Shown here: positions 30,306 through 47,645 of the stretch, in pieces | How positions within the stretch are numbered: the first letter of the stretch is position 1 | How the letters are laid out: every line of letters starts with the position of its first letter | NCBI GenBank assembly: GCA_002682825.1 | Contig: NOKP01000001.1 | Location: forward strand, 746,501-810,500 | Direction of reading: 5' to 3' | DNA length: 64,000 nucleotides | Origin: Neonectria sp. B-13 | Lineage: Eukaryota; Ascomycota; Sordariomycetes; Hypocreales; Nectriaceae | The notes under the pieces: model-generated | Told to the model about the DNA's origin: nothing | The model's database searches: none | The model's input: only the letters and a program-made list of their open reading frames with translations | Program-made: the position numbers and the translations under genes

Positions 30306-32383
30306 GATCTTGACTTGTCAAAGACATGAACGGAATCCGTTGCTTTTGTGACCCTGAAGTTTGAATGTTGGCGACCTATGACCTTTATCTAGGAGAATGG
30401 AACCACCTCCCCGCAGTTCGAGGTTACTGTAAATTCCGGGGTAAGTGGTGCCGAGCCTACGGACATCGGGCACTAACATCCCGAGCATAATCCTTACATC
30501 CCATGATCTTCTGAAGATCTCGCGTTTAGAAGTTGTACTGCATCAATCTACCTCGAAGGAATCAGGGGCGGCATCCCGGAATCTATATTTCCCGCCAATC
30601 CCCATGCTGCCCTCATTTCACTGGTCAAGCCTTCAGGTTTGTCAGCCACCGAGGCGAAATGAAGTCTTCCGAGAACCAGGGATAGTCGTCTAATGGTCAT
30701 GCGCCTCTTAATCGGCTAACTGGTTTTAGGCTGAGTTACGTCTGACTTGGGAAATAATCGGCCGCTCGTTTAGACCATGATCCCAAAGACCAGAACTGAG
30801 CCCGAAGCTTACGGCATACAGGATCGAGGAAGTTGATAGAATTTTACCGGTGAAGAGTAGAGATGACTAGATTACCGTACAGGGCAGGGAACATGTGACC
30901 GTCTGTCTGGGAAGCCTTCAATATAGCAATAACTTACAAAACCTTACTATCCTATGCCTTGCGGCTAGTTGTTTAAGTTGCAGTATGCTGCTGTTTCTCG
31001 AGAATGTTCAATGACAAGCCTTGCAAAGGCCGCTTGCTACATGCCAGCATAACGAGGATGAAAGGTTGTCCGCCGTGCTCGACTCGCCTGTTGCTTGCAA
31101 TACTAGGCGCGTCAAATGTGACGCGGTCTACGGACGGTATACTGGCATTGTCATATACGACAAGTATCCTGCGAGCCAACCGAACTAAAACGGGCAGATT
31201 TGTTCCAGCCATTCGCAGCTGCTTTGCGGTGTGACTGAAGTTGATGCTAAATGTGTTCTGTAAAGGCATGCTCAGTCTGAGACAAAACTACTTCTCGTGT
31301 CACATATAAGTCATAGTTGTACTACGCATTAGCGGAGTGCGCATTCCATTTTGCCGTAGCTAGCAATGCGACATCTCGCCGTTCCAAAACGGTCCGAGAC
31401 AATTCTGCTATCATAGTAGAGCATTCTTCCCCTGAGAGGACATCTGCTAATACCCGCCCGGTTACGGTGTAGCCCGCCAGAACAGTAGTGTTCAAGACGG
31501 CATTGAGGTAGGGTGGAATATGTGAGGCGGCCCGAGCGACTTGCGAGAGCCCTGTTGCCCACAGTCGAGATCAGGATATCGCACCTTTCATTTCTCAGCA
31601 CTTCTATGAACATTGACAGCTTCAGAATTGGGACCAATACTACGCTCAAATTAAGACCGTACTCAACACACGAGTGTCTCCTTTGCCTTTCCCCTTGTCT
31701 CTCTCTGCTGTGAAACCCGAAACCGTTGCATAATGATTTGAGACAGGAGGTGCTTAGTCTCCACGGCACGATTAACTGACAGGATAAACAGCTCAAGAAT
31801 TAAAGAGTAATCCTAAGGGCTGTATCTAAAGTTTAAGCCATCTAGGCTTTGTATAGACTTCTTTTCAATCACATACATTCGTCAGGGTTGGATGAGAGCG
31901 TTGGAGAGGCCTTCATCAAGGCGAGGGAGGAGCGTTGAAGTGGGTGGGGGGCCGTTGGGGAGAGGATCGGGCCAGAAAATCTCTTCGTCGAGGTTGGAAC
32001 TCGCTCAGTCAAACGACGAAGACTCCATTACTGCAGTTGACGAAGCGAAGTGGTAGATTTGGTTGTGATCATTCTAGGAAGAGTCGCGGCACTACGGACA
32101 CGTTAGTAAGTTGCATCATCAAGGAAGAAGTACGGCCTGACGTGAATGTGCACTTCCGGGCATGCTCAGATGAGAGACTTCATTGAGACCAAGAGCGCGG
32201 GTTCCATGCTTGTCAAGTTGTCGACATGCCCAGCTTTTAGGAGGGCTTTAGGATAAGCCCAGTTCGCCGCCCATCTCAAGAATCAGTAGCATACGGTTCC
32301 ACAATCACAGGGTCACGAAGATTTCTCTTTGCATTGAGGCACAATATTGTATCTCATTGAGGTATTTGTGATTAAACGCCGAC
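30306..32383. other. gene-poor intergenic region, 2.1 kb
   Basis: It follows the glycosidase start and precedes the 3' end of the TRI12-like transporter gene. Short open frames on both strands (31000-31800) show no domain or codon pattern I trust. Nothing else is recognised. Confidence 0.4.
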
Positions 32384-34306
32384 TTAGACATTTGCTTCAT
32401 CACGTGTCTTCTTAGGGACGGCCTTCTCATCAACCATCCGTCTCTCCACCTTATCAGTCAAATGCTTCTTCGCGTCCTTGGCGAACAAACATCCGATGAT
32501 GGCAATGGCTCCAAATCCTAGACTGGCAAGGTACACTGTCTTGAAAGCCTGCGCATACGCATTGGGCAAAGCGCCTGCCACTGCGGTCTGGACCTCAACA
32601 GGGAAGCTGGTCAGATTGCCCGCAGTAATGGCCGCAAGAAGCTCAGAAGTCTGATTCGAAGGAAGTCCTGCATTTTCAGCCGCGGGAATAACGTTATTAG
32701 GGATCGTGTCTGTGAGTCGGTTGCTCAGGATTGAGGTGTAGACTGCCACTGCGATGGAACCACCCGCGGAGCGAATGGACGCAAGCAGACCGGATGCCAG
32801 TCCAATATCCTGAGCTGCGCAGAACAACGGAGCCAAAGCGAGCGATGCAAGCTCGATGAATCCGACGCAAAAGGGGCCGAGAATGGTCAAAGCAATGCCA
32901 GTATTCTTGTCGGATGGAGTGAGTGACGCGAGCGAGGCGACGAAGCCAACCATGGCGAAGGTTGTGCCGATGAGCCAGTACCGCACGTTTCCACCCCACC
33001 TCACGATCAATCCGGCGACAATCTGTCCGAGTGCCGTCGACGACGCCACAGTGCAAGACAACCATCCGGCATAAGTGATGTCCTTCGTAAAGAGAGCCTG
33101 AACCTGCTGCGGCCAGAGAAGAACGGCACTGTAATAAAACACTAGGCCATCGTGTTAGTTATCACACACCAATTCAAGCACTTCAAAAATGGAAATGGAA
33201 ATGACTTACTGCTAGCAACGGTGGCGCAGCAGACCAAAGACATGAAGCCGCGGTTGCGGAAGAACTTGACGGGGATCGCCGGATACTTCAAGTTTGCAAA
33301 TGCCTCATAAACGAAGAGGGCAACCAAAAGGAGAGCACCGATGACGAGAGTCGAAATCGTTGCTGCCGATTTCCACGGGTACATCTTGCCTCCCCAGGAG
33401 ACACCCATCAAGAAGAGGGTAAGGCCAGCCGTCCAGAGGAAGATGCCTACGTAGTCAAGTTCCTTGAGCATCTGTCGCTTGGTCTTGCGCTCGTGGAGAA
33501 GATGGAAGGTCGGTGGGTGGTAGAAGAAAAAGAGAAAGATGATGGCCAAACCAACATCGATGATGTTGATATAATAGCACCAGCGCCAGCCGAGCGAAGG
33601 ATTCGAGACGAACTTGCGGGCTAGGAAGAATTAGCAGCTGCCAGATAGAACGGAGTTTCTCTAGATCATACCAATGATAGGACCAAAAGTAGCAATGGGG
33701 GCGTTTGTGAGGAAGACAAACGACAGCACCATGGGACGATACTTGTTCGGCACGAGTTCTCCAATAGCAACATTGAAGCTGAGCTGCACTGTTTCTCCGA
33801 GGCCGTAAACAGCGCTGCCGATGATGAGGGTATTGACATTCTGGGCAAACGCACAGACGATGATTCCAATGAGCGCAACCACGTTGCCGCCGATAAAGAA
33901 CCATCGACGTCCAAAGAGATCGGAAAGTCGGCCAAGGATCGTGTACGTGAAGGACAGGGCGAGAGTACGAGCGATGTTGACCCATGCAATGTAGTTGCTC
34001 GGGCCGATGTCCGCGTTGATATAGGTCAAGACATTGGTCGGTAGGATCAAGAAGAGGTAGGCGCTGATGGCTGAGAGACAGAAGCCCTAAACAATTCGTC
34101 AGTCAGAAGTTGATTAATGACGAGGGGGCAATACATACAGTAAGAGCTCCGATGAATTGAACGGAGTAGAAATACCCAGGTGGAAGGTCATCACCAAGAG
34201 CAGCAGAGTTGATGGACGAGGCATCGCTATCATTTCGTGCGCGCTCCTTCTCGTCGTCAATGACGTCGTGGTGCTCTGCAGCACTCTCGATTTTGTTGAC
34301 TTCCAT
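32384..34306 (-). CDS. TRI12-like MFS transporter (fungal efflux pump family)
   Basis: Membrane permease of 583 aa, complement(32384-33141, 33210-33620, 33672-34086, 34139-34306). It belongs by pattern to the fungal trichothecene-efflux-pump-like family (PF06609), whose members carry many unrelated substrates. After an acidic cytosolic tail come PPGYFYSVQFIGAL, the motif-A loop LGRLSDLFGRRWFFIGG, GLGETVQLSFNVAIGELVPNKYR, LGWRWCYYINI, and a long central loop LLHERKTKRQMLKELDYVG between the two halves. Fourteen hydrophobic segments are plausible. All four exons join in frame (SFIGALT-GFCL, GPIIA-RKFV, VASM-FYYSAV). It is the left-most member of the peroxisomal CoA cluster and the best candidate for moving that pathway's substrate. 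A cluster motif lies about 470 bases upstream of its start. The nearest upstream ATG gives MEVNKIES. Confidence 0.9.
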
Positions 34307-34774
34307 TGTCAAAGGGTGCAATGCACCAAGGGACTGACACCTGCAGGAACAAACAAGAGGAGTTCTGTGAAGGGCGAAGCGTGGCTTGATGCAAGTGAGC
34401 TGAGTGTGAAGCTCAAGTGTAACCCTTTACTGCAAGTCGGGGGATGATCGGCGCCTTATAGATGAGTGAAGTGTGAGATGAAGAGGTACGTCCAGGAGTG
34501 GTGACTTGGAACAGTTGAAAGTGGCACTATCACCATTCGAACCAGGTCATTCCTCACTAAAATTACCGGATGTTCTGGGCAGCGAGGTGTCAGCGCAAGC
34601 ACCAGCCAGCCTATCACCCAGCTGACAATGCTTCTTGTCCCATTACCCCAGACTACCCCGGAAAATGGCAGCCATGGTCCTGCGGGGAAAGCGGCGGTGC
34701 TGTGGGGGACAAGGGCTAGGGCCTAGATACAGATAGCTCAGCCAAGCTTGCGTATTCGTGGGTCCTAGCAGGCG

Positions 34775-34788
34775 ATGAATCATTAGGG
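34775..34788 (-). promoter_or_regulatory. cluster motif copy 1
   Basis: The plus strand reads ATGAATCATTAGGG, so the minus strand is CCCTAATGATTCAT. Extended to CCCTAATGATTCATCG it is identical over 16 bases to copy 3 at 41790. It lies about 470 bases upstream of the TRI12-like transporter start. Candidate transcription-factor site; the TGATTCA core resembles an AP-1/Gcn4-type half site. Confidence 0.55.
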
Positions 34789-35091
34789 AATATCAGCACC
34801 AGCCTAAAGGGAGTAGAGACCGGGGTCGTCACACTATTGTGTCAGTCTGTGTGTCCCTCTTCGTGGATACAAAAGTTAGGAATAATTATTTGTACTTCGA
34901 CTCAGGTATGAGAAACGGTATAGGCTAGGGGTTAGGACCTATCTAATCTCGTGTATCTGACGTGGAAATTGTGTTTGCTGAGGAGGCGTGCACTCATCAA
35001 TGGAAGTGAGTCATTGTTTGGAGAGATTTGGGTGGTTGAACTCGAAGTCCTGGCGTTTCGAGGATTGGTTCATCCAGGAGAAACCCCGATG

Positions 35092-35101
35092 AATGATTCA
35101 T
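35092..35101 (+). promoter_or_regulatory. cluster motif copy 2, partial
   Basis: AATGATTCAT, lacking the leading CT of the full motif, sits within the near-palindrome ATGAATGATTCATT. It is between the transporter promoter and the 3' end of the first hydratase gene. The weakest of the five copies. Confidence 0.35.
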
Positions 35102-35327
35102 TGGACTTGCTAAGTGCCAGACCTTGCTGTGATCGTAGATGGTCCGTCAGCGTACCCCTATCTGCTCCAAACATCTGTCTTGAGACAATGTGTGGGGAAA
35201 CAATAGCTACGATCGCAGAACGCGCGACACGGTAGGGAGAGTACTGCGGTCAGCTCCTGCATTGAGATTCCGTTCTATTAACTACAACCAGTTTGGGACA
35301 TCTAGCTTCCTAGCTCCTTGACAGACA

Positions 35328-36170
35328 TCACAGTCGACTCCCTTTCCATACTGGCTCCCTCTTCTCCGAAAACGCCTTTAGCCCTTCGACTATGTTTTCC
35401 CCCTTCTGTAGTTCGGCAAACTCCTTCTCCAGCGTACATTCAACAGCTCGTTCGACCGCTGCCGTCTCCCATCCTTGGCGAATACCAGCTCGTGTGCAGA
35501 TAATCGCATCTGGGCTGTTCTTTGCAATCATCTCCGCAAACTTGACCGCTTCCTGAACAACCTGCTCTTTGGGAACCACCTTGTTCACAATTCCCCATTG
35601 AAACATCTCCTGCGCTGAAACGTTCCGTCCTGTGAGAGCGAACTCGGATGCCCTCTGTAAGCCGATGGTCCGGATTAGTCGAGGCAGTGCTCCGCCAATG
35701 GCCGCGATTCCACGGCGAACCTCAGGGAGACCGAAGTATGCGTCGTCGGCTGCGACAACCAAGTCACAGTTGACGATAAACTCGCATCCACCGCCCATCG
35801 CCAGGCCGTTCACTGCCGCAATGATGGGCTTCTTCCCTAAGCGCCGACTGAGAGGCTTGAAGGCGGGAGCATTACCCATCCGTTTGCTGGGATCCGCGTC
35901 ATCAGACATTGAGTTGCTCCATTCTTTCAAATCGGCGCCAGCAGAAAAGGCTCTGCCAGTTCCAGTGATGATTGCTACTGAAAGTTTGGGCTCATCGTCA
36001 AACCATTTCCAGACCGAGTCCATTTCCCATTGAGCTGCTGTGGACATGGCATTGAGATCTTTTGGCCTGTCCATGCGCACCAGGACGACGCGAGGAGCGG
36101 GAAATGTGAGCCTCAGAAATGCTGGAGTCGGCGGCGGCGGCGTCGCTGTGGGGTATGAGTTTCCAGACAT
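35328..36170 (-). CDS. enoyl-CoA hydratase/isomerase, crotonase fold, peroxisomal (SRL end)
   Basis: Single-exon gene, 280 aa, start ATG at 36170 (the frame extends upstream only to a non-ATG codon). Crotonase motifs: the oxyanion-hole region AFSAGADLKEW, then NGLAMGGGCEFIVNCDLVVA and AYFGLPEVRRGIAAIGGALPRL. Glu130 and Glu150 are 20 residues apart, as are the two catalytic glutamates of classical crotonase (144 and 164), so hydratase activity is likely. The protein ends GSRL, an accepted PTS1 variant, predicting the peroxisome matrix. It shares an 800-base divergent promoter with the second hydratase at 36971, which carries a copy of the cluster motif. Confidence 0.92.
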   Translation of the reverse strand: MSGNSYPTATPPPPTPAFLRLTFPAPRVVLVRMDRPKDLNAMSTAAQWEMDSVWKWFDDEPKLSVAIITGTGRAFSAGADLKEWSNSMSDDADPSKRMGNAPAFKPLSRRLGKKPIIAAVNGLAMGGGCEFIVNCDLVVAADDAYFGLPEVRRGIAAIGGALPRLIRTIGLQRASEFALTGRNVSAQEMFQWGIVNKVVPKEQVVQEAVKFAEMIAKNSPDAIICTRAGIRQGWETAAVERAVECTLEKEFAELQKGENIVEGLKAFSEKREPVWKGSRL

Positions 36171-36970
36171 GTTCACTGTGTCTTGAGATGAAGAAGTTGA
36201 GGTGGCAGAATGGTTCGGTTGGCGAAAATGTATTGGTAGTTGGAGTGAGTGATTGCCAGTGCGATCAAGTTCCAGCGCAGTACGGATAATACCCAGATTA
36301 AAATGCTCCAGGAATGATAAACATGAAGTTTGAAATATGTGATTGACACAAAAAGGCCAGGCTAATAGCGCTTATTCTGTGTCGAGTAGGCAAGCGATTG
36401 CCGTAACTTCCCCGGCTGTTAGAACGGGGTCCTCTGAGTACCGCAGTCACTCATTTGTCTCGGGCTTCGTCTCCCTCGGCCTTCAACAACAGTCCTAGCA
36501 GCTACTCTCCTGTCTCGATCCAATCCGATGCCCCATATCGCTTGAAACTAGACACACCTGCTGACGCGGACGCCGAGGCTCCTCCTCACAGTCGATAGTC
36601 CGCAAAGTGCGGGGAAGCTGGACAAGCGGCAGACACTAATGATTCATTGCAAGGGCCATGTGAGTCCAAGAACAAGCACCGACATTCAGGGAGATGCGGA
36701 TGGCCGGCAAGCTGTCTCCGAGGAGCGCACTGAGAAGCTCTGCCATACTGCCAGCCCAAGGGCCAGGGTAGTTGTGATTGTATTGTTGTTACCCGGTATC
36801 TTTTTGCCCGCGAGCAACCGAGGTGATATCGCAAGAAACGAGCACCTCACTCTCCTCCGTCGGGCTTGTCAATGATGGTCTAAAATGTGATATTGAATAC
36901 TCATTCTCGCTCATCCGCTTGGCCAGTCAACCCTGCAGTCACTTCCCTCTCAATTCCACCCATCGCCAAC
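36171..36970. other. divergent promoter between the two enoyl-CoA hydratase genes
   Basis: The 800 bases between head-to-head genes contain the full cluster motif at 36636. No gene is visible; open frames at 36590-36875 lack any domain. Confidence 0.55.
36636..36647 (+). promoter_or_regulatory. cluster motif copy 3 of the set
   Basis: CTAATGATTCAT, within CACTAATGATTCATTG. It is about 335 bases upstream of the second hydratase start and 466 bases upstream of the first, between divergent genes. It shares CACTAATGATTCA with the copy at 45288. Confidence 0.6.
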
Positions 36971-37869
36971 ATGTCCACACCACGAACCAAGAACCCCGTC
37001 CCCTCGTGGATTGAGAACCCCTACCCGAATGTCGAACACAGCATCATTAGCTTTCCCCGCAAACACGTCCTCCAAGTCACAATCAACCGGCCGGAGTATC
37101 GCAATTGCCTGCCCGTAGAGGCAACGATTGAGCTCGGCGCGCTCTGGAAGTGGTACGATGCTGAACCTGAGCTGCGATGCGCCGTCTTCACTGGCGCCGG
37201 CGAGAAGGCATTCTGCGCGGGCATGGATCTGAAGCAGAGACTCGATATCATCAAGACCAACGATGTCGCCCACGATTATCCTGCCGGGGGATTCGGCGGT
37301 ATGACGAATAGAACGGGGAAGAAGCCCATTGTCATTGCCTGCAATGGACACGCGCATGGTAAGACAATCTGGCAATCTAGAAGGTACACCAAACTGACAT
37401 TACAGGCGGCGGCTTCGAAATCATCCTCAATGCCGATGTCATCTTCGCTTCGCCGAATGCCACGTTCCGACTCCCCGAGGTACTTCGTGGTGTCTCAGCC
37501 CTCGCGGGAGCCCTCCCCAGAGCGATGTTGCTCTTCGGAAACCACAGAACTATGGACCTTGTATTGACTGGTCGGATACTCTCAGTCGAAGAGGCACTGC
37601 AATGGGGTCTTGTCAAGGAGATTGTGCCCCAGGACAAGCTGCTGGAAAGAACATTGGACTATGCCTCTGAGATTGCCAGTCTAAGCCCAGACAGCGTCAT
37701 CATCTCCCGGCTGGGAGCGCGAGAGGTGTGGGAAACCGGCGTGAGCAGAGCTACGATGAGGGGACAGGAACTGTACGCGGAAGCGATGTTGCGGAGTAAA
37801 AACGCAACCGAGGGTTTGGCTGCGTATCGAGAGAAGCGGGATCCCAACTGGTTCCCGTCGCATATCTAG
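36971..37869 (+). CDS. second enoyl-CoA hydratase/isomerase, crotonase fold
   Basis: 283 aa, join(36971-37358, 37406-37869). The 47-base intron has donor GTAAGA and branch CTGACATTACAG, and restores NGHAHGGGFEIILNAD across the active site. Motifs: AFCAGMDLKQR for the oxyanion hole, then GGGFEI and ATFRLPEVLRGVSALAGALPRA. Glu134 and Glu154 occupy the two catalytic positions. It is about as similar to the first hydratase as two family members in a pathway would be, and it differs in having an intron, so it is not a recent copy. The end is PSHI; SHI fits only the loosest PTS1 rule, so location is uncertain. Divergently transcribed from the SRL-ending hydratase. Confidence 0.92.
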
Positions 37870-38140
37870 AAGTCGCGAATACTCATTTAATTCACCTTTA
37901 CCTTACGCATTTTCCTCCTGTATATCCTTAATTCAATTCACCCAATAAGGCAGGGTCTTGACTCACATAGCGTCGTGCACACTTCACACGGCATCCTCAC
38001 CGTCGTAGCGAGCTTTTAATGCGCGCCGTGATTGGGAATAGTCTTGCAAGTCGGCAAAGGTGTGGTATGTCGCGTCGCGTATTCCAGTGTCCATGAAGGA
38101 TGATCATAATAGATAAATCTAGCCATATATACACCGTTGA

Positions 38141-39214
38141 TTACAGCTTGCTACCGCTCTGCGCCAACTGGGCATAACCGTTGGACAATGCCACGCGCCC
38201 ATCTCCTTTGACAATCGTCTCAAACATAATATCATCAACACCATCCTTGGATCCGACCACCCACATCCTCGTCTCAAGTTCATCGCCAGGATACACCACG
38301 CTCTTGAATCGCGCACCAAACTTCTTAAACCGACTCGGGTCAGAACCTCCGAGCTCCTTCAGGACACCGTGGGCCGCAATGTTCCAGGTGCCCAGGCCGT
38401 GCAGGATGCATCCGTTAAAGCCGGCTCGCTTTCCGAAAGCCTCGTCCGCGTGCATGGGGTTGTAGTCACCACACAGCCGGTAAAGCAAAGCAACCTCCGG
38501 GGTCGTCTGGAACGTGTGCGTGGCGTCTGGAGCTCGGTTGGGCGGCTTGGGGGAAGGCTTGGAGGGACCGCGAGGACCATCATAGCCACCTTGGCCGATG
38601 CCGAAAGCCATAGAGTTCATTTTAGCGTAAACTGTTCCCGTTTTGACATCCACGAGTTCCTGTTCGGCCTCAAGAATCATGGCGCCACCTAATGTAAGAC
38701 ACGAGTCAGCGACGGTAGTCAATAGATTAGCGTTGGTCTTCACCCTTGTCATAAACACCAATGACTTTGTTCTGGATCTCGAGATCCAATCCCTCGGAGC
38801 TGGTGGGAATCGTCTTCAGGATCTCAATCCCTCTCTCTCCGTCCACTGATCTCTGGGCGTCGAACCGCGGTGTTCCAGGAACGTCGGAGGTGGTCATGCG
38901 TGAGATGAAGTCGAAGACATCCTGGTCTGTCTGCTTGAATGCCAGATTGATGGGGAATGTCGGAAAGGTGGCAAACTTGGGATGGAGCTCGTAGAGAAGA
39001 TGCCGCTCGTCGGCCTTGGTTCCAATGGCATTGGCCTGTAGATTTGGTTAATACTTGATGCCTTCAGGCAATGTGAAAGACTTACAAAGAGAAGCACATC
39101 CCTGCGGTTGTAGCTGCATTTTAGAGGTGGGTATTTGTGCCCAGCCGCCTTGCGAAAGTCGACATTGTCGTATCGCCCAGAGGCATTGAGTACAGGCTTA
39201 TCGCTCGAAGTCAT
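38141..39214 (-). CDS. MaoC-type (hot-dog) enoyl-CoA hydratase, peroxisomal (SKL end)
   Basis: 322 aa, complement(38141-38688, 38744-39035, 39086-39214), all joins in frame (LLF-ANAIGTK and YDKG-GAMIL). It resembles hydratase-2 domains of fungal peroxisomal multifunctional proteins, but as a stand-alone enzyme. An N-terminal hot-dog half (YNRRDVLLFANAIG) is followed by the catalytic half with YRLCGDYNPMHADEAFGKR and AGFNGCILHGLGTWN, which holds the Asp and His of the hydratase-2 signature and the downstream LHG loop. The C-terminus is SGSKL, a strong PTS1. Hydratase-2 enzymes hydrate trans-2-enoyl-CoA to the (R)-3-hydroxy product, whereas crotonases give the (S)-product, so the cluster carries both stereochemistries. 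Confidence 0.92.
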
Positions 39215-39624
39215 TTTATCCAGGCTTAATTGAAGAAGAAAAGTATGTTGTTGAGGTCTGAACTGAATGAAGCTGTTGTAGAAGATGAGCTGGACGCTTT
39301 ATTAGTGACTCCCGCTATGTCATTCCACCGCACCACGTAGCTTACCCCGCCGTTTGGATCCCAAGGCCTGGTATTTGCCGAGGCTCGTTCACCTACAGCC
39401 TCGGAGGCTCGGACGGCATCTCGATTCGGCCACCTCTCACCGACGTGATGTTGGGCTTGGAGAGTGCTTGGCACTTGTTTCGTGCAGTCTGGAGGCTGGA
39501 GATTGCCGTCTCAGGATTTATCACATCTCATTTTCGGAACGTGGTTTCTGGGAGGTATTGAAGCGTTTGAGAGATAGCTGGCTATTTGGAAATGGACTAT
39601 TTGACTAACACTGCCATCGCCCTG
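39215..39624. other. intergenic between MaoC gene start and AtuA-1 gene end
   Basis: 410 bases, promoter of the MaoC-type gene. No full cluster motif. The rough half-match ATTAGTGACTC is at 39301, sharing the CACTAAT flank of two full copies on the other strand. No gene seen. Confidence 0.4.
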
Positions 39625-41505
39625 TTACAGCGTCATCCGCGACGAGTTTGCCCGCTGCTCTGCATTCGCACGTCGCTGTTCTTCAACCTGCACCAATTCT
39701 ACCGGCAGTTCAACTACCCTGACCCTCAAAAACTCCGAGATGCTTTTCCCAAACCCATCCAGCACGCTGCTACTGCTTACTCCGTCCTGCAATATCCCCT
39801 TGATCACGAAGTGAACCGCGTTCAAGTGCGGGAACTCGCACCGCTCAACTGAGTAGCGAGGGTCCCAATCGTCAGCCAGGAGTTCAATCAGCTTCGGCAC
39901 AGTCAAGAAGGCCTGTGCAAAGGGAAATGCCATTGGGTCCCGGACCCAGAAGCCGACGTTGGCATTGCCGCCCTTGTCACCGCTGCGGGCAAAGAAGAGA
40001 TCACCAAGCGGGCGCTGGATCAGTCGTCCGGTCGTGGAAGACACATTCACCGGCTCGGAAGTTGCAACCGATTGAAACTCTGGGATCAGCGCTCGCATGT
40101 CTTTGAAGTTTGGTGCCGGGACAGCGTGCTGCGCTCCAGAGACAAAGTGAACCGTCAATCTGGGGAGTGCTTCCTGCTGGATCAGGGCGGGAAAGTAGGA
40201 TACAAACGGCTTCGGCTCCATCGTCCGCCAGTCCATTCCCAGGTGCAGACCACAGTATCCCTGCATCCCATTGTAAAAGATCGCCCTCCTAAACTGAGTA
40301 AACGCCTCCTTCTTCGGGCTTTGTGCAAAGAATCTGAACTGGACGGTGCAGTCTTTCTGGCTCCGCGGGTTGATGGGCGGGGACCCGTATTTCTCTATCG
40401 AGAATGTCGTAAAGTCGTCAAGGTTGATTTGCCCTAGGACTTGGTCCTTCATCAAATTGAACTTGAAGTCCACGTCGCCTCCCGCGGCATATGCTGAGAT
40501 CTCGGCCTGGAACCCGCCCAGAACACTGATTGCAACCTTTGCAGTGTCGGGAGGAGGGATTCCCACGATGCCTGACAGTCGAACTCGGTCTTTGCCCACT
40601 TGTTCAAGAGAGGCACCATCGATCCGTGCCACGACATCGGGATTAAGATATTTCGGCCCTTGGATCTCGTAGAGGAGCTGGCCTTTGCACGTATCCACCG
40701 TCACAGCCCCGTTGGACCCCTCAGGCTTGGTGATGATTGATGTCCCGTCTGCTGCAATCTCGGCAATCGGATACCCGACATGGTGCAGTTGAGCGATCTC
40801 TCGAGCACCACAGTAGTTGCCGCCTGTCACATAGGCACCGCATTCGGTGAGATGTCCGGCCATGAGACTGCCAGCGATTTGGTCGTAGTCGGTGTCTTTC
40901 CAGCCCCAGTACCAGGATGCGAGTGCCATGACGGGAGACGCGTCGCAGCACCGGCCGCAGATTACAATATCGGCGCCATTTTCGAGAGCTTTGATGATTC
41001 CTCTCTGTCCGGTGTACACGTTTGCCGCGAGTATTTGTCTCCCTCCCGCCTCAAACTTCCGGCCCGCTTGGTCGAGGTGCTGCGGGTTTCCGAATTTATT
41101 GTTCCGCATTTGCTCCGTGACATCGTCGCCTTCGACCCAAGCGACCTTCATGTGCCGGATTCCCAAGCTGCGAAAGTACGAATCGACCTTCTCGGCTAAG
41201 CCTTTGGGGTTGAGGGCACCCCCATCATGGACAACTTTGATGCCGTTGTTGGCGACGGCGCGGGCACCCTCTCCGTTTTTCCAGGCCAGTTGTTCGAGGA
41301 AGTTGGGTTCGTAGCCTAGATCGGGTCTCGTTTGCAGTTCAATCGCTTTCCAGGCAATGTTGAACTCGGCTAGGTAGTCGGCCGTAATGGCGTCCACGGC
41401 GCCGCTCGAGGCGAGGCGATACACTTGGTCAAGGCCATCGCCAATTGCACCGGACGCGTTGCCAATCCGAATAGGACGGCGGGTCTTTGTCTCATTCGCT
41501 GACAT
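39625..41505 (-). CDS. AtuA (DUF1446) family protein, paralogue 1
   Basis: Intronless, 626 aa, start ATG at 41505 giving MSANETKTRRPIRIGN. An N-terminal AtuA/DUF1446 domain (about 10-470) has RIGNASGAIGDGLDQVYRL, VNNG-type KVVHDGGALNPKGLAEKV, ADIVICGRCCDASPVMALASWYWGW and TGGNYCGA. A smaller C-terminal domain (about 510-610) has LFFARSGDKGGNANVGFWVRD and LNAVHFVIKG, the AtuA-like ferredoxin-fold tail. AtuA is named from the bacterial acyclic terpene utilisation operon, where its biochemical role is not settled. No peroxisomal tail (ends RMTL), so it is probably cytosolic. Head-to-head with the acyl-CoA ligase at 42056 across a 550-base promoter with a cluster motif in its middle. Confidence 0.92.
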   Translation of the reverse strand: MSANETKTRRPIRIGNASGAIGDGLDQVYRLASSGAVDAITADYLAEFNIAWKAIELQTRPDLGYEPNFLEQLAWKNGEGARAVANNGIKVVHDGGALNPKGLAEKVDSYFRSLGIRHMKVAWVEGDDVTEQMRNNKFGNPQHLDQAGRKFEAGGRQILAANVYTGQRGIIKALENGADIVICGRCCDASPVMALASWYWGWKDTDYDQIAGSLMAGHLTECGAYVTGGNYCGAREIAQLHHVGYPIAEIAADGTSIITKPEGSNGAVTVDTCKGQLLYEIQGPKYLNPDVVARIDGASLEQVGKDRVRLSGIVGIPPPDTAKVAISVLGGFQAEISAYAAGGDVDFKFNLMKDQVLGQINLDDFTTFSIEKYGSPPINPRSQKDCTVQFRFFAQSPKKEAFTQFRRAIFYNGMQGYCGLHLGMDWRTMEPKPFVSYFPALIQQEALPRLTVHFVSGAQHAVPAPNFKDMRALIPEFQSVATSEPVNVSSTTGRLIQRPLGDLFFARSGDKGGNANVGFWVRDPMAFPFAQAFLTVPKLIELLADDWDPRYSVERCEFPHLNAVHFVIKGILQDGVSSSSVLDGFGKSISEFLRVRVVELPVELVQVEEQRRANAEQRANSSRMTL

Positions 41506-42055
41506 CGTGAATGGGGAGGATAGCTTATCGGTGGTGAATACCGTCAATGACTCTGTCTAGAGAATGCCTGACTGGAAGCGTTCAACACGAATGTCCATGT
41601 TGCTTGCTTCATGTTCCGCGAACCGCCTTCAGCCATTTCCGTCCTCGGCAAACAATACCATTGACAAGTCGTTAGCACCGGCCGAGCAAGGCCATATCTC
41701 CTCACTCCTCAGTTCTCTCTCGACTCAACCCCACGCTCGTGCAGCTCGCTATCTCGGTTGAGGCAGCCTAAGATGCGGAGGTGGATTGGCCCTAATGATT
41801 CATCGTGGAGTTGTGGGTCTTCCCCAGACGGAACCGGCATCGACTAATGGAAGCGATCTATAGCGGCTTACTACGCATGGGTCTTGACCAGGGTGGCGGA
41901 AGACATCTCCCAGCTTACTCGGCAAATTGTGGTGAGGATTGCCATGGCTCCAAGAGGTGTCGGATCTATAGCATCATCGTCAAGCTTCAGTTCGAGCTTC
42001 ACCCCAGAACTTGCGCGTGTATGTATGCATTTCGATCACTCAACCAACATTCACC
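41506..42055. other. divergent promoter between AtuA-1 and acyl-CoA ligase
   Basis: 550 bases between head-to-head genes. The cluster motif at 41790 is almost central: about 287 bases from the AtuA-1 start and 264 from the ligase start. No gene in between. Confidence 0.6.
41790..41805 (+). promoter_or_regulatory. cluster motif copy 4 of the set
   Basis: CCCTAATGATTCATCG, identical over all 16 bases to the reverse complement of the copy at 34773-34788. It is placed centrally between two divergent start codons. Confidence 0.65.
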
Positions 42056-43735
42056 ATGACAATTTACAACCTTGATCGAGGGGTTGATATTCCCAAGGAC
42101 CAAAACCTCACCCAGCTCCTTCACTCCTCAGCCTACGATCTCCCTGAGTCACACGTTATCTCGGCCGACAGTCTCACCAATCGAAGCATCACGCTGGGTG
42201 AACTACGAGACCGCACAGGCCGGATCGCCAATGGGTTCAAGCGGAAGCTCAACCCACCAGATCAAGCAAGATGGGCCATTGTTCTCCCCAACAGCGTTGA
42301 GTTTCTGGAGCTCTTCCACTCCATCTTGTGGACCGGAGGCTCTGTCTGTCCAATCAACTATGCGCTAAAAGCAGCCGAAATCGGACATGGAATTGCTGTT
42401 TGTCGGCCTCAATTTGTCGTTGCATTTGGGAAGATCCTTCCTGCCATCAACGAGGCAGTTCAAGTCGCTGCTGCGGAGTTGAAGAAGGAGGGTGTGGAAT
42501 GGAACCCGCCAACCATCTTGACTGTCATCACCAAATCACCAAATCATCTCCATGTACCGGACGACTTCTTGGCTTCAGAGCGATTGGAAATCCCCCACTG
42601 GTATGATACTACAAAGCGGCTTGCATCCATCCATCTGTCGTCCGGAACGACAGGAAAACCCAAGGGAGTTGAACTCACGCACTTCAATTTCGTGGCAAAC
42701 GTGCATCAACTCATCTCACACGATTCATCTCAATTCCATCCTGGATCCAAGACGGTGGCATTCACGCCTTGGGCTCATATTGCCATGACGACCATGCCTA
42801 TGTTTCTAGGGCCCTACACCGGCATGTTCCACCACGCAATGCCCTCATACAATCTCGAGGCCTTTGCGAAGCTGGTGGGATCCAACCAAGCTACTTCTTT
42901 CCAAGGAGTGCCCTCTGTGGTTTTATCTCTGGCCAAGTCCGACGTGACAAAGCGATATGACTTCTCCCGCGCTGCAATCCTCAATGTCGGCGGGGCGCCG
43001 CTTAAAAAGGGCGACTTGGATACCCTCATGTCGCGGGCCCCCTGGAAGATGATACAGGCCTACGGCATGACGGAGGCAGCCGGCTACGTGGCTTATCAAC
43101 GCCTTGATGAGTCTCTCCCGGAGGGCTCGACTGGACAGCTGCTTCCAGGCGTTGAAGCTCGACTAGTCAAGGAAGGGACGGGAAATGATGCGCCTTTGGG
43201 TGGCCCCGGGGAGTTGTGGCTGCGAGGGCCGAATATTACGAGTGGGTACGCCTTCAACGACGAAGCCAACCGAAACGGTTTCCCTGAGGAGGGTTGGTAC
43301 AACACTGGCGATGTCTGCACGATTGACAGAGAGGGGCGTCTTGCAATCGTGGGGCGTACGAAAGAACTCATTAAATACAAGGGGTTTCAAGTATCTCCAG
43401 GGGAGCTTGAATCCTACATCAACTCTCACCCAGACGTAGCCGAAGGCGGAGTTGGAGCTTTATGGGACGAGAGTCAGTTGACCGAGGTGCCCACAGCCTG
43501 GGTGGTGCTCAAACCTCACCTCCTAGAGAAGAACGCGACTGAAAGGAAGACTTCTCTCAAGAATGTCCAACACTGGATAGATGAGCAGGTCAGTGGGTAC
43601 AAAAAGCTACGTGGTGGTGTCTGGGAAGTGAGTAAGCTGCCGAGGAACGCGACAGGGAAGATCCTCAGGAAAGAAATGGTAGAAATGAGGCAAGGACTTT
43701 GCTCTCTGGACAAGAGGTTTGCCTCAAAGCTGTAG
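42056..43735 (+). CDS. acyl-CoA ligase (AMP-forming, 4-coumarate-CoA-ligase-like), peroxisomal (SKL end)
   Basis: Intronless, 559 aa, start ATG at 42056 (MTIYNLDRGVDIP); upstream codons in frame are non-ATG. It activates a carboxylic acid to its CoA thioester via an acyl-adenylate. All adenylation motifs are seen: LSSGTTGKPKGVELTH (phosphate loop), MIQAYGMTEAAG, GELWLRGPNITSGY, GWYNTGDVCTIDREGRLAIVGRTKELIKYKGFQVSPGELE, and the catalytic-lysine motif PRNATGKILRKEM. The C-terminus FASKL is a canonical PTS1, so it acts in the peroxisome. The most likely entry step of the cluster pathway. Acid specificity cannot be read off by eye. Confidence 0.95.
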   Translation: MTIYNLDRGVDIPKDQNLTQLLHSSAYDLPESHVISADSLTNRSITLGELRDRTGRIANGFKRKLNPPDQARWAIVLPNSVEFLELFHSILWTGGSVCPINYALKAAEIGHGIAVCRPQFVVAFGKILPAINEAVQVAAAELKKEGVEWNPPTILTVITKSPNHLHVPDDFLASERLEIPHWYDTTKRLASIHLSSGTTGKPKGVELTHFNFVANVHQLISHDSSQFHPGSKTVAFTPWAHIAMTTMPMFLGPYTGMFHHAMPSYNLEAFAKLVGSNQATSFQGVPSVVLSLAKSDVTKRYDFSRAAILNVGGAPLKKGDLDTLMSRAPWKMIQAYGMTEAAGYVAYQRLDESLPEGSTGQLLPGVEARLVKEGTGNDAPLGGPGELWLRGPNITSGYAFNDEANRNGFPEEGWYNTGDVCTIDREGRLAIVGRTKELIKYKGFQVSPGELESYINSHPDVAEGGVGALWDESQLTEVPTAWVVLKPHLLEKNATERKTSLKNVQHWIDEQVSGYKKLRGGVWEVSKLPRNATGKILRKEMVEMRQGLCSLDKRFASKL

Positions 43736-44166
43736 AGCAGATTAGGGTGTGGATTAATGCGAGATGAGGATGAGGACGAGGACGTTGACTAGATATGTGA
43801 GGCGGCGTCCCAACCAGCTGCCGTCACGACGCTATAGGGTGGCACGACAAGTAACGACGTAGAAAGTACCGAAAACAACTACAATGCACATTAAATCTCT
43901 GAGTGGTGGGCATAACCTTACTTCCTTTCTACCTTATGAAATTCGTGACTACCACATTCCACTCTCCAGATACTGCCATTACCTTTCTCTCAGCGCTTGC
44001 ACGATGACCGGATAAAGTAATGCGAGCTGAGGGGTCAGCCACGCGAGGTGGTGGCCCACCAACCCATGAACCGCAAATACTATAACAGACCAGGCCGATG
44101 GCTAGCTTCGAGCCTATCTATTACACAAATTCTCTTTCTCCCTGTCTGGCATTGACTCATTTCAAA
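43736..44166. other. intergenic between acyl-CoA ligase and ABM-domain gene
   Basis: 430 bases, same-strand spacing. A GATGAG/GACGAG-rich patch lies near 43765-43790. No full cluster motif found. No gene seen. Confidence 0.45.
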
Positions 44167-44926
44167 ATGGCTGAGAGAATATTAGTTGTCGCCCGATTGT
44201 TCACGGTGGAAGGCCGTCGCATTGAGGTTTGTCATTGAGTCCAAGGCCCCGGCATGGAGCTGACGGTTCGTAAAGCTGCTGGATAGACTGCAAGCACTGG
44301 CAGATATTGCCTTGAAAAGCGAACCCGGGACGCTCAAGTATGCTGCCCTCATCCCCCGCGAAGATGACGGCAGGACGGTGTACGCAGTCGAGGAGTAAGT
44401 CAGTCAGAAATGCCTCTCGAACACATACGCTAAACATCTCAGGTACACCGATAAAGCATCTTTCGACGAACACATGTCAAGCGTTGGAGTGAAAGAGATA
44501 AATAAATGGTTTGAAGACGAGAAGGTCCTAGACCCGACCGACACACCCGATGTTCACATTTTGGAGTACCTCCCTGAGTTTCGCTTCACCCGAGCGGAAG
44601 TGCTCCAGCACCCAGATCCTCATGTCATCTTCGCGGAGCTTGACTACATTCCTGGCGAGGTGGAAACCTCTATTCCGTATTGGCGAGCTGTGGTGGAAAC
44701 AGGACGTGATGAGGAACCCGGTACGTTGGTGTACGGAATTCTGAAGGATACTAAAAAGGAGCATCGGCTGTGCTCAATTGAGGCATATGAAAGTCCCGAG
44801 TACTTGAAGGATGTCCATGTGCCGAGCAAGGCCATTCAGAACAGCATCAGCAACACAAAGCATTTGAGAACGGGGTTGAAGCACCACTTTCTGCAGAAGA
44901 AGGGCGGATGGCTGTACAGGGAGTAG
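44167..44926 (+). CDS. protein with two ABM-like (dimeric alpha+beta barrel) domains
   Basis: 220 aa, join(44167-44226, 44276-44394, 44443-44926), introns 49 and 48 bases. The first half, MAERILVVARLFTVEGRRIE then LLDRLQALADIALKSEPGTLKYAA and VEEYTDKASFDEHMSSV, has the ABM pattern: strand, helix, EPGxLxY, xxExYxDxxAxxxH. The second half repeats it with PDPHVIFAELDYIPG, EEPGTLVYGIL, IEAYESPEYLKDVHVPSKAI. ABM-fold proteins include small cofactor-free oxygenases and lyases of aromatic and polyketide compounds as well as dehalogenase-like and regulatory proteins. No catalytic residue can be assigned. It sits inside the CoA cluster, so it may act on the same compound. Confidence 0.8.
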
Positions 44927-45552
44927 CAGTTCAAGCAAATTTATTGTATCTAGATGGTCATAGAATTTAAAACATATGCACATAGAAAGATTTTCTCAAA
45001 ACTCTCAGATCAAATTATTTGCAATGCATGACGGGTTTCTTCAGACTGCTTCTCATCGAACACCCTCTTGATGCCCACACGCCAATATTTCTACGAGAGT
45101 GCGACACGATATCCTAAACTGTACCCCACATCACGAGCCGGATACCCCAAGCTCGGCAGTCTTCTTCATGATGACCCCGGGAAGACAAGCCAAGACCCAC
45201 CTGACAAGCCATCTTCATCTGGGGTGCAGGATGGTCAGGAGGATGGTCGAAAGAGGGGCACAGAGAGTTGGTGGGGTTAGCGGGTACTGAATCATTAGTG
45301 CCTTCTCTAGGAGGTGGCGAGAACCTGTGAGCATGTCAACTCCGTGATGCCTCGCTTTGTTTGGTCGCTGACAGTGAGGGGTTCTTGGAGAACGCGGTCT
45401 TTGCTGACGGAGAGGCCTAATCTCCGAGGCACAGGTGGGTGAAGTGATCCGGCTGTGGCATATATGTGTGCTAGGTCTCCCACGATGTTGCTTTGGGTAG
45501 ACTTCATTCTCAGACTCTCTGTACTAAGAAATTGGTTGCTGCTCTATTCATC
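44927..45552. other. intergenic upstream of AtuA-2, with a motif copy
   Basis: 625 bases, 3' flank of the ABM gene and promoter of AtuA-2. Contains the cluster motif at 45288-45298. Open frames at 45070-45290 have no domain. Confidence 0.5.
45288..45298 (-). promoter_or_regulatory. cluster motif copy 5 of the set
   Basis: The plus strand TGAATCATTAG is CTAATGATTCA on the minus strand, flanked as CACTAATGATTCAG. It is about 255 bases upstream of the AtuA-2 start, matching the 264-287-base distances at the AtuA-1/ligase promoter. Confidence 0.6.
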
Positions 45553-47645
45553 ATGGCCCCTTCAGCTATCTCCGATTCGGCTACAAATGGCACCAATGGG
45601 CAGCTGCGACTTGGAGTTCCCTCGTCAAGACCCATCCGGATCGCGGGGTGTTCCGGAGGTGAGTACTGAAACCATATTGACACCGGAATGAATGCTGATA
45701 TTTCTAGGTGTCTACGACCGAAAGCGAGCTATGGAAGACATGGCAAAGAACGAAGAAGTCGATGTCATCATCGGAGACTGGATGAGCGAGTGCAACATGA
45801 CCCTCAGAGGATCAGACAAGCGGGATAAACTTGCACAACGCAAGATGGCAACTGGATCCGACTTGGTCGCCAAGGGATACGAGCCATACTTCCTCGAAGA
45901 GGTTGACCCGGCCATCCCATGGCTTGCCAAGAAGGGCACCAAGCTCGCCGTCAACGCCGGTGCTTCAGATGTCCACGGTCTGGCAGAGGCCGTCAAGGCC
46001 TTGATAAAGAAACATGGCGTGGACCTCAAGGTCGGCGTCGTAGACGGTGACGATGTTACAGACGCCGTGCTAGATTTATACAAGAAAGGTACGCACTCTC
46101 ATCTTCACTCGCTTCCCGGAAGATCCTAACAGTAGAGTCCAGGCGAACCCTTCCTCAACCTCCCCGCCAACAAGGCCATCCAGGACTGGGGCTACGACCC
46201 CGTCTGCGCGCAGTGCTACCTCGGCGGCACCGGTATCGCCGAGTGCTTCCGCGGCGGTGCCGACATCGTGCTCTGCGGCCGTGTCGCTGACGCTTCACCC
46301 GCCGTCGGTGCGGCCATGTACTGGTACGGCTGGAACCGCGAGGAGCACGTCACGGAGCTGGCAGGCGCGCTGATGGTCGGGCACATTATCGAGTGCTCGA
46401 CGTATGCGACCGGCGGCTACTACTCAGGCTTCAAAGACCTGGGCGACAAGGACCTGGATATGGGATATCCCATTGCCTCGATTGAGGAGAATGGCGAGAG
46501 TGTCATTACCATGGAGAAGAACAAGGACGGCCTTGTCAACACGGCGACTATTGCCAGCCAGCTCCTCTATGAAATCCAGGGGCCTCTTTACTATAACTCG
46601 GATGTCACTGCTTCCATCGAAGACGTCAAGCTTGAGCAAGTTGGCAAGAACGCAGTCCGCGTCTCGGGAATCAAGGGACTTCCCGCGCCACCCACGACCA
46701 AAGGTAAGTCAAACTGCTACGCTCGTACAGAAAGACTGCGACTGACAACTTCAAACAGTTGGAATCACCGCAAAGGGCGGCTGGCAAGCCGAGTTCTACT
46801 TCTACCTGACGGGTATCGATATCCCCGAAAAGGCGGCCATGATCGAGCGCCAGACGAAGGCTCGCATGGGCAAATACCTCGAAAAGTTCACCTGTCTGAA
46901 GTTCATGATCGCCGGCGCCGTCCCTTCGAACCCTGAATCGCAGGAGGAGGGAACAGTCCTGATGCGCATCTTCGCCCAGACTCGCGACGATGAGCTCCTC
47001 GCGGGCAACAGCTTCGTCGACTCGGACCGCGGTTCGTTTGCGCGTTTCTGTATCGAGAACCTGCTACAGTCGTATCCCGGAGGCACCATGGCGCCTGATA
47101 TGCGAACCGCCGTGGGCCGACCGTTCTTCGAGTACTGGGTTGCTTTGATGCCGCAGTCCTTTGTCGAGGAGACTGCTCACCTGCCCGACGGCACCATCAT
47201 CAAGATCCCACCTCCAACCAAGACCCAGGAATATCCTCGTGAACAGCCTTCATATTCGGTCACGTCCAACCCCGTTGATCTCTCCTCATTCGGCCCAACC
47301 ACCCGCGGGCCTCTGGGCTGGATTGTTCTGGGCCGCTCCGGCGACAAGTCATCCAACGCGAACCTGGGTCTGTTTGTTCGCCACGACGACGAGTGGGACT
47401 GGCTACGAAGCATTCTTTCCACTGAAAAGCTGCGAGAGCTCCTTGGCAAGGATGATGCTGGTCGCCAGATTGACCGATGCGAAATGGCCAATATCCGAGC
47501 AGTGCACTTCTTGCTGAAGGACCACCTTGACCGGGGCTTTAACTCAACATCCAGCTTTGACAGTCTGGGTAAGAACTTGTGCGAGTACATCAGGAGTAGA
47601 CATGTGGATATTCCCAACCGGTTCCTTGAAAGAGGAAAGGTATAG
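45553..47645 (+). CDS. AtuA (DUF1446) family protein, paralogue 2
   Basis: 644 aa, join(45553-45658, 45708-46088, 46143-46703, 46759-47645), all introns 49-55 bases and in frame. It has the same two-domain plan as AtuA-1: RPIRIAGCSGGVYDRKRAM, DVIIGDWMSECNMTLRG, LAVNAGASDVHGLAEAV, ADIVLCGRVADASPAVGAAMYW, TGGYYSG, then the C-terminal tail with LGRSGDKSSNANLGLFVR and IRAVHFLLKDHL. It has three introns where paralogue 1 has none, and the sequences differ widely, so the two are ancient family branches, not a tandem duplicate. Ends RGKV with no peroxisomal signal. The right-most member of the cluster. Confidence 0.92.

Follow-up and report, generated by a model that had tools for sequence, protein, structure and literature searches.

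Beta-methyl branches block ordinary beta-oxidation, and to our knowledge the described microbial ways around this block (the Atu and Liu pathways) need a biotin carboxylase. In the atu cluster of Pseudomonas, AtuA stands together with a crotonase (AtuE), an acyl-CoA ligase (AtuH), a geranyl-CoA carboxylase (AtuC/F) and an acyl-CoA dehydrogenase (AtuD). The available text of two papers assigns AtuA, tentatively or as speculation, the lyase step on 3-hydroxy-3-isohexenylglutaryl-CoA (PMC4847356, PMC9973270). Here, we describe eight genes at positions 32384–47645 of a 64-kb stretch from the fungus Neonectria sp. B-13 (contig NOKP01000001.1, positions 746,501 to 810,500; this whole stretch is called the window below), which encode two AtuA-type (DUF1446) proteins, AtuA1 and AtuA2, together with two crotonases, a MaoC hydratase, an AMP-forming acyl-CoA ligase, a double-ABM protein and a major facilitator superfamily (MFS) transporter. 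We consider it very probable that this cluster is a real, conserved and co-regulated catabolic unit. Our preferred reading of its function is held far more tentatively: it may break down a carboxylic acid with a beta branch (3-alkyl, probably isoprenoid-derived) by carboxylation-free hydration followed by AtuA cleavage.

Like the atu cluster, the locus brings AtuA together with proteins in the AtuE and AtuH roles, but it has no geranyl-CoA carboxylase in the window and no acyl-CoA dehydrogenase among the eight genes, while it has two AtuAs and two crotonases, an added MaoC and ABM protein, and tags that resemble peroxisomal targeting signals type 1 (PTS1). The SidI-SidH-SidF branch of fusarinine siderophore synthesis likewise combines an AMP-forming ligase and a SidH-type hydratase with peroxisomal targeting signals; here neither SidF nor a non-ribosomal peptide synthetase (NRPS) is among the eight genes, and AtuA and MaoC are added. 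The thn cluster of anaerobic naphthalene degraders, as far as the available part of PMC12016498 describes it, shares two AtuA-like genes, MaoC and crotonases with the fungal locus but is bacterial and includes a CoA-transferase, dehydrogenases and thiolases. The gene set had looked undescribed from the sequence, and we found no matching description in the open full-text literature on DUF1446/AtuA, geranyl-CoA carboxylase, limonene use by Grosmannia and SidH, a scope that leaves most subscription papers aside, so that a published account is possible, perhaps among studies of how bark-beetle fungi use monoterpenes. Related proteins surface in parts of other reports: a DUF1446 gene (AN10086) in a NapA expression table of A. 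nidulans (PMC5371717), two DUF1446 proteins in a Moniliophthora roreri list (PMC3948071) and an enriched acyclic terpene utilisation family in Cladophialophora immunda (PMC5595782).

Conserved linkage and a shared promoter motif

The cluster exceeds chance because its orthologues are linked in other ascomycetes and its promoters have a word in common; an accident of gene order was rejected on the former ground. Linkage was read from annotation traces (locus tags, gene-model fusions and matching contig sizes) in a survey that covered the AtuAs, the crotonases and MaoC. A crotonase orthologue is no more than five locus tags away from AtuA1 in 10 named fungi (Neonectria punicea, N. ditissima, N. 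magnoliae, Verticillium albo-atrum, Fusarium zealandicum, F. decemcellulare, Colletotrichum jinshuiense, Thyridium curvatum, Sarocladium strictum and Elasticomyces elasticus), and the tags of AtuA1 and AtuA2 differ by two in N. punicea, N. ditissima, V. albo-atrum and Neoarthrinium moseri. By exact match of contig size, a proxy in which the size given is that of the longest contig of each protein cluster, at least 37 of the 120 AtuA1 relatives listed share a contig with a relative of AtuA2, crotonase 1 or crotonase 2. Among the matches listed, the partner is a crotonase in at least 34/120 and AtuA2 in at least 8/120; these are lower bounds that took in 46/120 listed AtuA2 matches and 119/120 crotonase matches (one had no contig). 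The shared contigs include the genera Patellaria and Lophium, which we take to be Dothideomycetes, Exophiala (presumably Eurotiomycetes) and Tricladium (presumably Leotiomycetes). In Neoarthrinium and Colletotrichum, AtuA1 gene models continue into a MaoC part that is 74–78% identical to the cluster MaoC. Such AtuA1-MaoC fusions, and AtuA1-ligase fusions as well, may be annotation errors, yet they are evidence of adjacency. The sequence-only reading had chosen conserved co-occurrence in other genomes beforehand as its test, and this was found for AtuA1 with crotonases, MaoC and AtuA2. As a separate observation, the AtuA2 model JX266_010190 of Neoarthrinium moseri (nine member sequences) includes a TauD-type domain (PF02668), a hint of an extra neighbour gene.

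The word CTAATGATTCA is present in four of the six promoter-holding gaps of the cluster. No 10- or 11-base word reached four regions in 1000 dinucleotide shuffles, and 9-base words did in 2/1000. The sequence CTAATGATTCATYG has three sites in the whole assembly, all in the cluster (reversed control, 0), and the 14-base form CTAATGAWTCATYG, with A or T at the dyad centre, has four exact sites in the 61-Mb assembly. Three of these lie in the cluster and defined the form; the fourth (C1:699938, ~47 kb before the window) is independent, and it falls between the ligase and TRI12 MFS genes of a second AtuA cluster. Selectivity is confined to the exact 14-base form, which with one mismatch occurs at 41 places versus 29 for the control. 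The 11-base motif is not specific genome-wide, with 24 places versus 9 for the reversed control, of which four are in the cluster and some others are mirrored copies. A looser copy was seen at C53:325108, between a CoA-transferase ORF (open reading frame) and a zinc-cluster regulator ORF and ~16 kb from another AtuA. The surrounding stretch (C53:323.8–329.9 kb, ~11–16 kb from the AtuA gene) encodes a CoA-transferase III, the zinc-cluster regulator and one frame with HMG-CoA-lyase-like and crotonase domains.

AtuA relatives, hydratases and predicted compartment

The absence of a biotin carboxylase near the cluster, claimed from the sequence, held: neither domain scans nor tblastn with the subunits encoded on contig C69 found a biotin carboxylase or carboxyltransferase domain within the window. 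Carboxylase linkage was also examined in bacteria, among the 80 best AtuA loci of one scan. A crotonase relative was found in 45/80, and 48/80 are flanked on either side by at least 6 kb. Within these 48 loci, 32 have a carboxylase subunit and 16 have none. A crotonase directly adjoins AtuA in 15/48, always with a carboxylase subunit (15/15), a pattern in keeping with hydration before the lyase step in that branch; the 16 carboxylase-free loci have no adjacent crotonase either. The view that the cluster is not the Atu pathway as known stands as to a conserved CoA-thioester cluster around two AtuAs without a carboxylase, but carboxylase-free loci are not unique to it (16/48 bacterial loci).

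Carboxylase linkage in bacteria follows AtuA phylogeny: on a quick tree of 84 AtuAs it needs 3 changes versus a shuffled mean of 23 (0/500 shuffles as low). The trees are unrooted; 12/80 AtuA rows with a stop in the match frame were left out, as was own_C114_141 from the second tree. Among the carboxylase-free loci of at least 18 kb, 13/16 tree rows group in a single clade with 18 members (support 92; 17 actinobacteria). AtuA1 and AtuA2 form separate, strongly supported fungal clades, which together branch outside the carboxylase-linked one; support for their position near carboxylase-free bacteria is weak (83/62). In the four carboxylase-free bacterial loci scanned, a CoA-transferase III ORF adjoins AtuA in two (Nocardia and Actinomycetospora). 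Nocardia nova also resembles the fungal cluster in having an ABM-domain ORF (L050 6474–7016), which lies ~3 kb from its carboxylase-free AtuA.

Both AtuA1 and AtuA2 exceed the cut-offs for PF07287 and PF23544. In an alignment of fungal and bacterial AtuAs with 51 rows, one of which (own_C114_141) is a wrong ORF, the polar residues R185, D188, H218, E221, C222, E280, K323, R507, D510 and K511 are each kept in at least 50 rows, and AtuA2 has the same letters as AtuA1 at all of them. The structure 9qkx was rejected as a structural relative, since its E value of 0.00088 with one sequence became 0.35 with a profile.

Among solved structures, the best match of both crotonases is SidH (7oeq), with 280 bits versus 150 for the next match for crotonase 1 and 227 versus 145 for crotonase 2, and the two proteins are 40% identical to each other. 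Both keep the GGG-x-E and PEV glutamates, which we take to be catalytic-type. The compound on which SidH acts, mevalonyl-CoA, is a 3-hydroxy-3-methylacyl-CoA, and a SidH-type hydratase beside AtuA suits a substrate whose 3-hydroxy group is tertiary. Crotonase 1 is unlikely to be the siderophore SidH itself, given that its orthologues are linked with AtuA1 and that SidH-like genes (46–50% identity) lie at four other places in the genome (mirrored pairs counted once). The MaoC protein matches the MaoC-like dehydratase 3kh8 and then MFE-2 structures, and the ligase matches ancestral luciferase and 4-coumarate:CoA ligases.

PTS1-like ends recur across the cluster enzymes (crotonase 1, SRL; crotonase 2, SHI; MaoC and ligase, SKL), and from these ends most of the pathway looks peroxisomal. 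SRL or SKL ends occur in 52/52 of the crotonase 1 relatives listed and SHL, SYL or SHI ends (S[HY][LI]) in 68/68 of those of crotonase 2, while the AtuA1 relatives listed end in x[KR][LIM] in 91/120 and in [SAP][KR]L in 46/120. The variants ARL, AKL and PKL are functional PTS1 signals, and SidI (mevalonyl-CoA ligase) and SidH (mevalonyl-CoA hydratase) are both peroxisomal, according to the part of PMC3709128 available. The label peroxisomal, given to the whole cluster by the sequence-only reading, is thus well supported for crotonase 1, MaoC and the ligase and likely for crotonase 2; for AtuA1 it is likely in most orthologues and not clear in this lineage, and the C-terminal ends do not extend it to the ABM protein, the MFS transporter or AtuA2, which is probably not peroxisomal.

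Gene models and other AtuA loci

All eight genes are open spliced models with complete proteins (Table 1), and these models and Pfam bore out the genes and families first proposed. For MaoC, the 322-aa splice choice was adopted, with three further choices possible. The closest relatives of AtuA1 and AtuA2 are those of Neonectria punicea (94% and 97% identity, respectively) and N. ditissima (90% and 95%), which marks the host as Neonectria-like.

Table 1 Genes of the cluster and copies of the promoter motif (window positions)
Feature	Position	Strand	Details
MFS transporter, TRI12 type	32384..34306	-	583 aa; exons 34306-34139, 34086-33672, 33620-33210, 33141-32384; Pfam TRI12 7.6e-80
Motif CTAATGATTCATCG	34773..34786	-	467 bp upstream of MFS start
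Weaker motif copy, 2 mismatches	35090..35103	+	upstream of MFS gene
Crotonase 1, SidH-like	35328..36170	-	280 aa, one exon, ends SRL; Pfam ECH_1
Motif CTAATGATTCATTG	36636..36649	+	divergent promoter of crotonase 1 / crotonase 2
Crotonase 2, SidH-like	36971..37869	+	283 aa; exons 36971-37358, 37406-37869; ends SHI; Pfam ECH_1
MaoC / MFE-2-type hydratase 2	38141..39214	-	322 aa, ends SKL; exons 39214-39086, 39035-38744, 38688-38141; MFE-2_hydrat-2_N + MaoC
AtuA1	39625..41505	-	626 aa, one exon, ends MTL; Pfam AtuA + AtuA_ferredoxin
Motif CTAATGATTCATCG	41792..41805	+	divergent promoter of AtuA1 / ligase
AMP-forming acyl-CoA ligase, 4CL/luciferase-like	42056..43735	+	559 aa, ends SKL; AMP-binding + C domain
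Double-ABM protein	44167..44926	+	220 aa; exons 44167-44226, 44276-44394, 44443-44926; ABM x2
Motif copy CTAATGATTCAGTA	45285..45298	-	upstream of AtuA2; 11-base core exact, then 2 mismatches
AtuA2	45553..47645	+	644 aa; exons 45553-45658, 45708-46088, 46143-46703, 46759-47645; AtuA + AtuA_ferredoxin

From left to right, the gaps between the gene models are 1021, 800, 271, 410, 550, 431 and 626 bp, in agreement with the limit of about 1.05 kb given beforehand. The claim that the outside gaps exceed 2 kb stands for ORFs of at least 180 aa, the nearest of which ends at 29979 on the left (2.4 kb away, no Pfam match) and is an aminopeptidase P on the right (50611–51414, ~3 kb away), adjoined by an ORF at 50297–50704 that, judged by eye, resembles its next exon. 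Given shorter ORFs inside these gaps (156 aa at 29881–30351 and 31329–31799; 137 aa at 49142–49555), the claim is likely to hold. Farther left is an open frame with a HET (heterokaryon incompatibility) domain (23261–24598).

AtuA matches over the cut-off, once palindromic copies are removed, are long for ten genes of this genome, and two more (C20 and C35) are short pieces. At C69:24.5–35 kb an AtuA occurs with a biotin carboxylase, a carboxyltransferase, a crotonase and an acyl-CoA dehydrogenase; this Atu-like set has AtuA and a crotonase in common with the cluster and differs from it in the other three. Its AtuA is 23–32% identical to AtuA1/AtuA2, no motif copy was found in the two C69 stretches examined, and a SidH-like gene lies beside the set (C69:39.6–40.5 kb). 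The second AtuA cluster (C1:693.6–702.3 kb) resembles the one described here in its AtuA2-type gene (C1:693.7 kb), ligase, TRI12 MFS and exact 14-base motif copy, but the ligase is just 27% and the MFS just 31% identical, and tblastn found no crotonase or MaoC relative in 20 kb. A CoA-transferase III ORF is ~1 kb from the C37 AtuA paralogue and ~16 kb from the C53 AtuA. On C40, a ligase relative (30%; 439848–440927) lies ~11 kb from the AtuA paralogue at 452 kb and has a zinc-cluster regulator on its other side. Five ORFs were tested beside each of the AtuAs at C51, C114:141 kb and C114:308 kb, and none proved to be a CoA enzyme. Contigs C114, C20, C36, C56 and C70 look like whole-contig palindromes produced by assembly duplication: paired match coordinates sum to contig size + 1, and fetched pairs are exact reverse complements. 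The 60.9-Mb assembly size and copy counts would then be inflated. The C69 AtuA stretch is also mirrored.

Proposed route and competing explanations

With no carboxylase, the simplest scheme is ligase, hydration and AtuA cleavage; we infer every reaction, the step order, the substrate, the ABM role and the direction of transport. The MFS transporter would move the substrate or the product, and the SKL-tagged ligase would form the CoA thioester. From there, the MaoC hydratase and the pair of SidH-type crotonases could interconvert 3-alkyl-2-enoyl-CoA and 3-hydroxy-3-alkyl-acyl-CoA, with both C3 epimers reachable. AtuA1, and perhaps AtuA2, would cleave the hydroxyacyl-CoA (lyase or retro-aldol type) to a ketone and acetyl-CoA without prior biotin-dependent carboxylation.

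Several observations weigh against this scheme. Resemblance among crotonases says little about the substrate, single-sequence and profile searches found no solved relative of AtuA, and the carboxylase-linked fungal AtuA of C69 also has its place, on a long and uncertain branch, outside the carboxylase clade of bacteria. AtuA1 ends in MTL here, and AtuA2 has no PTS1-like end, its relatives listed ending in G[RK][IV] in 43/46. No dehydrogenase or thiolase was found by Pfam among the eight genes, so that products would need finishing elsewhere. In addition, neither the MaoC gap nor the ABM gap contains CTAATGATTCA, Fusarium zealandicum has its AtuA2 (FZEAL_9455) away from its AtuA1 (FZEAL_1610), and the ligase fused to the AtuA1 model of Cudoniella is just 33% identical to the cluster ligase.

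The substrate could instead be an aromatic or alicyclic acid, with the ligase activating the ring acid, the hydratases acting on ring or side-chain double bonds, the AtuAs cleaving the ring or side chain in the lyase role proposed for anaerobic naphthalene degradation, and the ABM protein oxidising a phenolic intermediate. The closest matches of the ligase and the presence of an ABM protein agree with this, as do the two genes called 'AtuA-like lyase' beside MaoC and crotonases in the thn table (part of PMC12016498). We regard it as unlikely, with crotonase 1 far nearer SidH (280 bits) than hydroxycinnamoyl-CoA hydratase/lyases (~100 bits) and the eight genes including neither a P450 nor a ring-cleaving oxygenase. 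That AtuA is another CoA-thioester enzyme (hydrolase, isomerase or transferase) rather than a lyase, and the cluster a modified side branch of beta-oxidation, seems to us distinctly unlikely, as the bacterial set of crotonase, AtuA and carboxylase (15/15) fits a post-hydration step. This possibility draws on the CoA-transferase III ORFs that adjoin AtuA in 2/4 carboxylase-free bacterial loci and lie ~1 kb away at C37, and on the available passages of PMC4847356 and PMC9973270, in which no direct assay of the AtuA protein is described.

Fungal methylcrotonyl-type carboxylases are mitochondrial, whereas several cluster proteins look peroxisomal. This argues against an ordinary Atu pathway split over the genome, in which the cluster would make and finish CoA esters and C69 or another carboxylase would supply the carboxylated intermediate. 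C69 does encode both carboxylase subunits and the acyl-CoA dehydrogenase, but it already has an AtuA and crotonase of its own and lacks the motif in the stretches examined, and the bacterial clade linked to carboxylases does not include the fungal AtuA1/2; we consider such a split improbable. Biosynthesis of an acyl-CoA building block, as by SidI/SidH for fusarinine-type siderophores with export by a TRI12-type pump, would account for the SidH-like crotonases, the ligase and the transporter, and SidI and SidH are peroxisomal (part of PMC3709128). We judge it very improbable: the eight genes include no acyltransferase, NRPS, polyketide synthase or oxygenase backbone gene, SidH-like genes exist at the four other places, and the two AtuAs have no place in it, AtuA being set in catabolic loci by the available text of PMC4847356, PMC9973270 and PMC12016498.

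Beyond the preferred beta-branched-acid route, a broader proposal is possible but doubtful. The AtuAs may form two functional branches, one acting after a biotin carboxylase and the other, with the fungal pair among its members, directly cleaving 3-hydroxyacyl-CoAs that have a beta branch. In that case an undescribed route without carboxylation would lead past the beta-methyl block of isoprenoid acids in fungal peroxisomes, and one shared promoter element would also control the second AtuA cluster. A conserved fungal cluster with hydratases and AtuA but without a carboxylase opens the putative AtuA reaction to direct tests in a tractable setting that offers a small gene set and a defined promoter element. 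Given the roughly ten AtuA-type genes in this fungus and the family enrichment in Cladophialophora immunda, an AtuA assignment here would annotate many genes now labelled DUF1446.

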